NCBI GenBank assembly: GCA_905236755.1
Contig: CAJOCR010000004.1
Span: 62,001 to 126,000 of the forward strand
Direction of reading: 5' to 3'
Length of the DNA stretch: 64,000 nt
Origin: an uncultured Prevotella sp.
Lineage (GTDB): Bacteria; Bacteroidota; Bacteroidia; Bacteroidales; Bacteroidaceae
Below, one piece after another: positions 38,105 through 59,790 of the stretch (the stretch's first letter is position 1; each line of letters opens with the position of its first letter). The notes beneath the pieces were generated by a model. That model made no database searches, was not told the origin of the DNA, and worked only from the letters and a program-made list of their open reading frames with translations. The translations under genes were made by a program, and so were the position numbers.

Positions 38105-38920
38105 ATGCAAAAGTACGCTAATTATATAAGACAGATAGAGATCGATTCGCTTTGGAGTGGCACAAAGCACATAAAGTGGAATCTTGATCGAAGGGTTAAT
38201 ATCCTTAGTGGCGTGAATGGTGTGGGTAAATCTACAATCCTCAATAAGCTTGTCAAGAGTCTTAATGCAGGAGGCGAGTATCTTAGCCATTTGTTGAAAG
38301 GAGTGCATGTAAAAGTAGAACCTTCTGATGCAAAATGGATTCGTGTAGATGTTATCCGCTCTTTCGATCGTCCATTGATGACTTCCGACGCGTTGGCAAA
38401 GATGGATGCATCGCTAACAACAGAACTCGATTGGCAGTTGTTTAATCTTCAGCGCAAATATCTTGATTATCAGGTGAACATTGGCAATCGCATTATCAAG
38501 GTGCTGCAGAGTGGCAAACCTGATGCTGCTGAGCAGGCTGCCGAGATTTCAAAGCCTAAGAAGCTGTTCCAGGATATTGTTGACAATCTTTTTTCCGATA
38601 CAGGAAAGACCATCATTCGTGAAGAAAACGAGATTCGTTTCTCTCAGATAGGCGAGACGCTTGTGCCTTATCAGCTGTCGAGTGGTGAAAAACAGATCCT
38701 CTGTATCCTGCTCACTGTATTGGTTGAAGACAACACTCCTTACGTTCTCTTTATGGATGAGCCTGAGGTGAGTCTGCATTTCGAGTGGCAAAAGCAACTC
38801 ATTGATTTAGTGTTGAAACTCAATCCTAATGTGCAGCTGATAATGACCACCCATAGTCCAGCAGTAGTGATGGCAGGCTGGGGAGAGAATGTAACCGAAG
38901 TAACTGATATCACCGTTTAA
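38105..38920 (+). CDS. AAA/ABC-type ATPase (SMC/OLD-like), first gene of an AAA + DUF4435-like pair
   Basis: Walker A GVNGVGKST; signature LSSGEKQIL; Walker B YVLFMDEPEVSLH; TTHSPAVV. Confidence 0.9.
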   Translation: MQKYANYIRQIEIDSLWSGTKHIKWNLDRRVNILSGVNGVGKSTILNKLVKSLNAGGEYLSHLLKGVHVKVEPSDAKWIRVDVIRSFDRPLMTSDALAKMDASLTTELDWQLFNLQRKYLDYQVNIGNRIIKVLQSGKPDAAEQAAEISKPKKLFQDIVDNLFSDTGKTIIREENEIRFSQIGETLVPYQLSSGEKQILCILLTVLVEDNTPYVLFMDEPEVSLHFEWQKQLIDLVLKLNPNVQLIMTTHSPAVVMAGWGENVTEVTDITV

Positions 38921-38938
38921 GGAAGAACCTAAAACCCA

Positions 38939-39955
38939 TTGGCACGCCGACTTGTAGATAACATAAATTCAGCCTATGTAGAGGCAGCAAACAAACTAAC
39001 CTCGAAGAAGGCACCACATAAAATAGTTGTTTATGTGGAAAGCTATGATGATATCTTCTTTTGGCGTTCCGTTCTTACTCCTTACGAAAACGAGAAGCGT
39101 TATTTCGAGATTCTCCTTCCCTCAAAGGGGCAGCAACTTGAACGAGGGAAGAAGGCTGCTATAAGCAATATCGTGGAGAGCGTAGGGCCCAATATGATAG
39201 CCTGTGTAGATGCCGATTACGACTATCTCATACAAGGCGCCTCGCCCACATCACGAACAGTGCTCAGCAATCCATACATCTTTCACACCTATGCCTATGC
39301 CATCGAAAACCTGCAGTGCTATGCTCCTTCGCTACATGGAGTAGTAGTGGCCTCAATACTCAATGATAAACGCACATTCGATTGTGTGGAATATCTCACT
39401 CATTTCAGTCGTATTATCTGGCCTTTGTTTGTGTGGAGCGTGTGGTTCTATCGTAGCACTCACTATGGGCAGTTCACCATCACCGATTTCAATCAAGTTA
39501 TAGAGCTTGGAAAAGTATCAGCATCTCGAGACCATCTCGAAACCTTCTCGAAGCTAAAGCAACACGTAAACCGAAAGGTTCGTCAGCTTGAAAGTAAATT
39601 TCCCGGCACTCAGGAACAGCTGAAAGCATTAGCTCAGGAACTGAAAGAAATGGGCGTACATCCTAATAACACCTACATGTATATCCAAGGGCATCATCTT
39701 TTCAATCACATTGTAGTGCCATTGCTCATCTCTATCTGTGACCGCCTGTACAATGAGCGAATTCGTGAGCTGAAAGAACTGTCGCAGCACATAGCTCAGT
39801 ATCACACCGAATTAGCCTGCTATGAAAAAAGCACCGAGAGCATTCCGTCTATGCTTAAAAAGAACACTGGCTACATGTTGTCGCCCGAATTTAAAAAGAT
39901 ACAACATGATATAGAAGAATACTTGGCCAATAATTTCTCTATATCGTCTCTATAA
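38939..39955 (+). CDS. DUF4435-like (Toprim-like) protein partnered with upstream ATPase; apparent TTG start
   Basis: HKIVVYVESYDDIFFWRSVL; NMIACVDADYDYL; YAYAIENLQCY; in-frame TAA at 38930 leaves TTG 38939 as the start. Confidence 0.8.
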   Translation: MARRLVDNINSAYVEAANKLTSKKAPHKIVVYVESYDDIFFWRSVLTPYENEKRYFEILLPSKGQQLERGKKAAISNIVESVGPNMIACVDADYDYLIQGASPTSRTVLSNPYIFHTYAYAIENLQCYAPSLHGVVVASILNDKRTFDCVEYLTHFSRIIWPLFVWSVWFYRSTHYGQFTITDFNQVIELGKVSASRDHLETFSKLKQHVNRKVRQLESKFPGTQEQLKALAQELKEMGVHPNNTYMYIQGHHLFNHIVVPLLISICDRLYNERIRELKELSQHIAQYHTELACYEKSTESIPSMLKKNTGYMLSPEFKKIQHDIEEYLANNFSISSL

Positions 39956-40146
39956 TGCGTCTATATCGGCGCCTCGCAAAGCGAGGCTATGAACATTGAA
40001 CATTGAATTTTGAAGTTTATGATTTGATTTACTACTTTTGAGCCGTTCAAACAAAAAGTAATCATAATGATCAAACATCAAAGTTCAAACTTCAAAGATT
40101 AAAATCAATCGCCCTTCACCCTATATACTGAAAAAAGGCATTTTTC

Positions 40147-40170
40147 GTGTTTACCCGATGTTTACCCAAA
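40147..40170. repeat. Direct repeat GTTTACCCgat GTTTACCCaaa
   Basis: gtGTTTACCCgatGTTTACCCaaa. Confidence 0.6.
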
Positions 40171-40286
40171 TTACATAACTCATTGAAACGGCAATAGTTA
40201 CAACGCTGATTTTTTTTAGAAAACGTCAACGTTCTTAGGAAAAGAGTAAACTAAATCAGGAGAAGGAATCAACTAAATCCGTATGA

Positions 40287-40330
40287 CAAAGCATAACATA
40301 ACAGCATAACAGTAAAATATGCACACACTA
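40287..40330 (-). repeat. GTTATG element copy A
   Basis: Reverse complement: TAGTGTGTGCATATTTTACTGTTATGCTGTTATGTTATGCTTT. Confidence 0.9.
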
Positions 40331-40361
40331 ACTTGAACAATGAAAGGATGAGTATAGGATA

Positions 40362-40399
40362 CTATTTATATATATAATTATAATTATATATATAAATAG
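40362..40399. repeat. Perfect 38-bp AT palindrome
   Basis: ctatttatatatataatta|taattatatatataaatag, no mismatch. Confidence 0.95.
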
Positions 40400-40430
40400 A
40401 ATTAAAATATCTATCTTCTCTTGAAGCGGG

Positions 40431-40475
40431 TACGTGCATATTTTACTGTTATGCTGTTATGTAACGTTATGCTTT
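40431..40475 (+). repeat. GTTATG element copy B
   Basis: TACGTGCATATTTTACTGTTATGCTGTTATGTAACGTTATGCTTT. Confidence 0.9.
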
Positions 40476-40517
40476 AAATGTAAAAAAAATAGTAATGTGT
40501 TGCTCAGGTAATCATAG

Positions 40518-40560
40518 GGCATAACATAACAGCATAACAGTAAGAATATGCACATACATA
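40518..40560 (-). repeat. GTTATG element copy C
   Basis: Reverse complement: TATGTATGTGCATATTCTTACTGTTATGCTGTTATGTTATGCC. Confidence 0.9.
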
Positions 40561-40604
40561 TTCTTGATGTTTGAGGATTATTATAGAGAAAACTTAGAGA
40601 TTTA

Positions 40605-40647
40605 GCGTTACAAATTTTATTGTTATGCTGTTATGTAACGCTGTTAT
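40605..40647 (+). repeat. GTTATG element copy D
   Basis: GCGTTACAAATTTTATTGTTATGCTGTTATGTAACGCTGTTAT; GCGTTAC/GTAACGC arms. Confidence 0.85.
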
Positions 40648-40707
40648 ATAAATAACGTTATACATTTGAGTTGTGTGATATTGTTTAGATTATTTACCAC
40701 AGATAAA

Positions 40708-40749
40708 AGCGTTACATAACAGCATAACAGTAAAATATGCGCACGCATA
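40708..40749 (-). repeat. GTTATG element copy E
   Basis: Reverse complement: TATGCGTGCGCATATTTTACTGTTATGCTGTTATGTAACGCT. Confidence 0.9.
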
Positions 40750-40758
40750 GTAGTGATA

Positions 40759-41115
40759 TTACTCTGCTAAACATCTTATTTCGGCAGGTAGTTGCACATT
40801 GTCGCAGGTAATGGTTGATAGTAGATCTTTGCCTTTATCGCTGATGCTGAATTTCATGCAGCGCAAGTCTTCTTTGCAGTAATGTCTGCAAATGAGTTTC
40901 TTTTTCTCAAGCGACGAGATAACCTTTGATGTGTTTGAGTTGGTTAACCCCATTTCTTCGGCAATCTCTCCACACGAAATATTATTTTTGTCATTTACAA
41001 CACAAAGCAGCATGGCCTCGTTGACGTTGAGGTTAAACTGCTTTTGTAAACTTTGTTCAAAAGCACCTATCGCTCGATAGATGCTTCTGATTTTGCATAA
41101 ACATTCTTTTTTCAT
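40759..41115 (-). CDS. MarR family transcriptional regulator, Cys-rich
   Basis: ISCGEIAEEMGLTNSNTSKVISSLEKKKLICRHYCKEDLRC; wHTH pattern; 9 Cys in 118 aa. Confidence 0.85.
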   Translation of the reverse strand: MKKECLCKIRSIYRAIGAFEQSLQKQFNLNVNEAMLLCVVNDKNNISCGEIAEEMGLTNSNTSKVISSLEKKKLICRHYCKEDLRCMKFSISDKGKDLLSTITCDNVQLPAEIRCLAE

Positions 41116-59661: not shown

Positions 59662-59708
59662 ATGTGTGCGTATATTTACTGTTATGCTGTTATGTTATGT
59701 AACGCTTT
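59662..59708 (+). repeat. GTTATG element copy F (distal single copy)
   Basis: ATGTGTGCGTATATTTACTGTTATGCTGTTATGTTATGTAACGCTTT. Confidence 0.9.
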
Positions 59709-59790
59709 CACATTAAATAACGCACGCACGCGTATATTTATTGTGCATCCCTTATTTTATTATTCAATATTCAATAATCACTATTTAATA

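Follow-up and report, generated by a model that had tools for sequence, protein, structure and literature searches.

A BIME-like cluster of alternating GTTATG repeats in a Prevotella genome, with signs of recombination between its own copies

What kind of element places five copies of a short sequence, each reversed relative to the last, between two convergent genes of an uncultured Prevotella sp.? The cluster had been described from the letters alone in an earlier note on this DNA, and we examined it within the window, by which we mean the whole stretch of 64,000 nucleotides that was analysed. Five GTTATG-rich copies of about 40 bp were confirmed at 40286-40744 in strict alternation, scoring 42-46 bits (E of 7e-12 or less) against a profile, R1, that was built from 21 aligned copies. 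These are copy A (40286-40327, minus strand, 45.9 bits, E 3.5e-13, and recovered by the repeat search of the window too), copy B (40432-40473, plus strand, 44.0 bits, E 1.4e-12), copy C (40517-40556, minus strand, 43.4 bits, E 2.2e-12), copy D (40609-40647, plus strand, 41.9 bits, E 6.5e-12), and copy E (40704-40744, minus strand, 45.2 bits, E 6.1e-13). The sequence CTGTTATGCTGTTATG, allowing up to three mismatches, matches seven times in the window against 0.95 expected, a count reached by none of 100 shuffles. A sixth and solitary copy, F, which had escaped the earlier note, lies 5' of ruvA (59664-59705, plus strand, R1 42.1 bits) and has an orthologous copy in the genome UBA4376, while a head-only fragment sits just downstream of it at 59729-59744.

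Each unit is composed of a TGTGCATATTTTA head followed by 2-4 direct repeats of TGTTATG or TTATG. The core and consensus reported previously were correct, including the TATTG of copy D, and the block-wise differences among copies proved to be whole 5-bp steps (TTATG, TAACG) 3' of the core, where A and C carry TTATGC, D and E carry TAACGC, B carries TAACGTTATGC, and F carries TTATGTAACGC. We also identified two features new to the description of the array. The first is a perfect AT-rich palindrome, CTATTTATATATATAATTATAATTATATATATAAATAG, in the loop between A and B (within 40360-40401); in this genome it occurs at the window array only, and in UBA4376 only inside two A-B pairs, with one symmetric double change by which the palindrome is kept. 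The second is a left flank at 40224-40285 (AACGTCAAC ... AGTAAACTAAATC ... GTATG), which alignment with the loci L071 and L074 showed to be common to A-palindrome-B-C units elsewhere. Since the window, L071, and L074 have this flank and the order A-palindrome-B-C in common, we regard the whole as a multi-copy composite of roughly 330 bp.

Neighbouring copies can pair into large predicted hairpins, as had been proposed. The A/B pair folds as RNA at -74.9 kcal/mol (z -12.3) and the D/E pair folds as DNA with a z of -7.9, in both cases better than all 200 shuffles. Single copies, with a GC content of about 0.3, fold no better than shuffles (z mostly -1 to +1). Tail modules match within only three pairs (D/E and the pairs at C8 and C13a), which gives no clear support for quasi-palindrome correction between the arms.

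The earlier expectation of further copies was borne out across the genome. A profile search of the 3.0 Mb draft (G000) found 14 strong copies at seven intergenic loci, plus weaker ones: the five-copy window array, inverted pairs at C2:34.5 kb, C8:128.4 kb, C13:40.3 kb, and C13:55.0 kb (the last with a weak second arm), and solitary copies upstream of ruvA (window 59664) and in front of dnaG (C4:156.2 kb). Inversion holds for all eight pairs of neighbours in this genome (a chance of 1/256), inverted pairs also occur at L071, L074, L223, L229, and G146:C243, and every cluster seen is made of inverted neighbours. The gene contexts differ, being convergent at the window, same-strand at C8 and C13a, and upstream of ruvA and dnaG at the solitary sites, and this variety counts against one local regulatory role. 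The dnaG copy has a promoter-like site on one side and the start of dnaG on the other.

Across the genus the repeat is restricted. The profile search at E 0.001 returned no copy in most of 398 genus genomes, and UBA4376 (G270), with 13 copies, is the sole other genome among them with the same form. A match in Clostridia (L073) was taken as chance, about two chance matches being expected by our own estimate, as was a match in G273 that sits in a coding-looking stretch. Weaker R1 matches in G146 and G015 are to a variant with TTATTGTAATGCTGTAATTGTAATGC, in which GTAATG stands in place of GTTATG. A model of this variant also matches G363 and G095, which brings it to at least four further genus members, and scores two UBA4376 copies at 21-23 bits. 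Variant copies are likewise paired in inverted orientation: the pair in L223 is tail-to-tail, whereas in L229 the two copies are head-to-head and almost fused. The variant also makes up an 80-bp unit that has short GGGCAA...TTGCCC ends and lies next to an 11-bp array. A relationship between the GTTATG and GTAATG forms is likely, to judge from modest scores and a common layout.

These 11-bp arrays belong to a second dispersed family, also new relative to the earlier note. Its block in the window (TCTATATCGTC TCTATAATGCG TCTATA; 39939-39965, plus strand) is one instance of an intergenic tandem family (TCTATAATGCC ... TCTATAATCCGTCTATA) found at 38 loci across the genome as well. Such blocks lie within about 20 bp of the element at C2, C8, and C13a, and at L197 in UBA4376, and (TTCGTTCATCC)n arrays stand beside GTAATG elements in other genus members. 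The arrays at L181, L182, L185, and L187 were read directly from the sequence; in a scan of the window for perfect repeats, 11-bp periodicity did not rise above other periods.

Turnover of the array can be seen here, since two related genomes appear to capture one cluster on either side of an exchange between copies, next to genes of 99% identity. Between the window and the orthologous locus in UBA4376 (L072), the genes on the right-hand side of the array have identities of 99.2% (MarR) and 99.6% (thioredoxin). Identity in the left-hand genes, DUF4435 and AAA, is 80-84%, and at their third codon positions it is 57-61%. Identity to UBA4376 changes sharply at 39970-40224, from about 81% on the left to 96-99% on the right, and this contrast places a recombination junction between those positions, just left of the array; the flank at 40224-40285 forms the left edge of the near-identical tract. 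The pattern suggests recent interspecies recombination at the junction, with the caveat that the UBA4376 contig is possibly a chimeric assembly. Within the array itself, 14 of 227 positions differ (93.8% identical) versus 5 of 843 in the MarR and thioredoxin genes combined (Fisher p 1e-6), and in L072 the A-palindrome-B-C segment is replaced by one hybrid copy with an A-like tail and a C-like flank. Recombination of A with C, which are direct copies, would produce such a hybrid. The lower identity of the array, together with this collapse, indicates that the array is altered by recombination among the copies it contains. Since three loci have the common left flank and A-palindrome-B-C, the difference more probably arose by loss in L072 than by gain in the window.

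UBA4376 retains both solitary copies, those at ruvA and dnaG, in orthologous positions, and this retention could reflect a host function there. Empty sites sought in UBA4376 yielded no clean case, the flanks of C8 and C13a being rearranged and the ruvA and dnaG copies being present in both genomes, and no target duplications were seen, again with C8 and C13a flanks rearranged in UBA4376. We therefore infer movement of the unit from its dispersal alone.

We hypothesize, with a probability of about 0.6, that the cluster is a mosaic resembling a bacterial interspersed mosaic element (BIME), formed from a non-coding, non-autonomous interspersed repeat that is confined to Prevotella, is reshaped when its copies recombine, and is mobilised in trans. 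Solitary units, and inverted neighbours with arms that pair into extended predicted hairpins, may have been spread by a transposase or a replication-linked process acting in trans, possibly in the form of a single-stranded hairpin doublet, while recombination between the direct copies of an array would remodel it. The repeat would be mostly a genomic passenger, with a possible side effect on the two convergent genes through the stabilising or blocking of read-through transcripts at their 3' ends. The search for an enzyme that mobilises the repeat found none, which counts against this explanation, as do the low copy number of about 14 per genome, the lack of clean empty sites or target duplications, and the retention of the ruvA and dnaG copies in UBA4376. 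Descriptions of interspersed mosaic repeats are good for Gammaproteobacteria but scarce for Prevotella, and our literature searches found no description of this family, nor its core sequence in the papers searched. As a tentative and rather unlikely extension, the repeat might represent a BIME-like class of the Bacteroidota, with a direct-repeat unit (11-bp arrays included), a word that switches between GTTATG and GTAATG while the layout is kept, and a mobiliser other than a REP-associated tyrosine transposase (RAYT); were the mobiliser indeed not RAYT, this would constitute a second route to alternating repeat mosaics.

The nearest Bacteroidota parallel is BrickBuilt, a MITE of Porphyromonas gingivalis with about 19 copies, 23-nt tandem repeats, a leader, a tail, and terminal inverted repeats (TIRs) related to ISPg1/ISPg9 (PMC4596501). 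The present element resembles it in being intergenic, built of tandem repeats, expanding and contracting, and restricted in distribution (BrickBuilt is species-restricted), and differs from it in having no TIR or insertion sequence match in the stretches examined and in the alternating orientation of its copies. Each inverted pair could be read as a miniature transposon bounded by the TIRs of an insertion sequence, a reading we consider unlikely. The spacing of inverted pairs (20-120 bp), the low copy number, the AT-richness, the comparable combination of TIRs and internal tandem repeats in BrickBuilt (PMC4596501), and the 80-bp GTAATG unit with its GGGCAA...TTGCCC ends would all fit a MITE. 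However, head-out and head-in pairs, solitary copies, and odd-numbered groups all occur, which indicates that the copies do not act as fixed TIRs; no transposase adjoins the copies in the stretches examined, and target duplications were not seen.

An improbable alternative is that the copies are host regulatory or chromosome-organising sites, whereby GTTATG repeats bind a protein and the inverted array is looped or wrapped. The 2-4 direct repeats in each copy would suit such binding, as would a layout that stays constant while the word shifts from GTTATG to GTAATG in other species, and the copies upstream of ruvA and dnaG are kept in two species. Against it stand the small number of copies, their restricted distribution, the lack of a common class of neighbouring gene, and the fast change at the window locus.

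The cluster as an interspersed mosaic is most readily compared with the BIMEs and REP (PU) sequences of enterobacteria, pseudomonads, and xanthomonads, which are short intergenic repeats that alternate in orientation, occur as singles, doublets, and larger clusters, and pair strongly with their neighbours (PMC2817692). The element has in common with them the intergenic clusters, the alternation, the range from singles to clusters, and the strong pairing of neighbours. Unlike REPs, its unit consists of direct repeats with no internal GC-rich palindrome, it has no GT(A/G)G head, and it numbers about 14 copies per genome rather than the usual >100. An ordinary REP/BIME moved by a RAYT transposase is more doubtful still than host binding sites. 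Alternating orientation and doublets are as in BIMEs (PMC2817692), and the genome does have, as in RAYT-mobilised systems, one RAYT-like gene (411 aa; NCBIfam REP_Tyr_transpos E 3e-5, below the cut-off). But the single copies have no notable hairpin, no GTAG/GTGG head, and low GC, and the link to RAYT raised in the earlier note fails on two counts. A search of the flanks of this only Y1-like gene found no element copy, and the gene and the repeat do not co-occur: roughly one genus genome in four has a homologue, in most cases with none of these repeats, and the genus genomes with a close homologue, at least seven in number, include six that lack both variants. Homologues of about 50% identity in G226, G127, G358, G174, G317, and G112 are all in genomes without copies of either variant; conversely, no homologue at 1e-20 was found in UBA4376, G146, G015, or G363, all of which have copies (some of these genomes are incomplete). 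G095 has both a RAYT-like homologue and a GTAATG-variant copy. Because two defining REP features are lacking and both RAYT tests were negative, we file the repeat as an interspersed-mosaic variant and not as a REP. The RAYT-like gene (L056:655-1890, minus strand) is a single copy beside mutS with a long C-terminal extension.

The array does lie, as had been stated, between convergent genes, a DUF4435 gene (38939-39955, plus strand; Pfam E 6e-49) and a MarR-like gene (40759-41115, minus strand; E 1.4e-9), and a bidirectional RNA hairpin ending or protecting their transcripts would suit the very stable predicted hairpins there, but is highly improbable given that the array has no U-tract terminator, that other copies are in 5' regions (e.g. 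ahead of the dnaG start), and that an Rfam search gave only sub-threshold models, mostly miRNA hairpins, with none above gathering score. The earlier view that no ordinary terminator explains five copies agrees with our search for a terminator-like site at the array, which found none, and identity as a terminator or Rfam RNA was dropped. We also dropped a tRNA site, none having been found, and a phage, plasmid, or viral origin, for which there was no match among phages, plasmids, or viral contigs.

Several minor observations concern the surroundings of the copies. In the window, 38105-39955 encodes an AAA ATPase (PtuA/AbiEii-like, AAA_21 E 2.8e-21) and, after it, the DUF4435 protein (E 6e-49); together they look like candidate defence or OLD/TOPRIM-type gene pairs. 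Elsewhere in the genome, a weak copy at C2:117560-117589 has extended GTTATG tandem repeats that abut an ordinary terminator hairpin. Two element pairs, at C13:40.6 kb and 54.9 kb (L012, L023), adjoin paralogous glycine-rich proteins (LEVWGAQG...); their contig contains additional DNA matches to this stretch, with a tyrosine recombinase gene close by.
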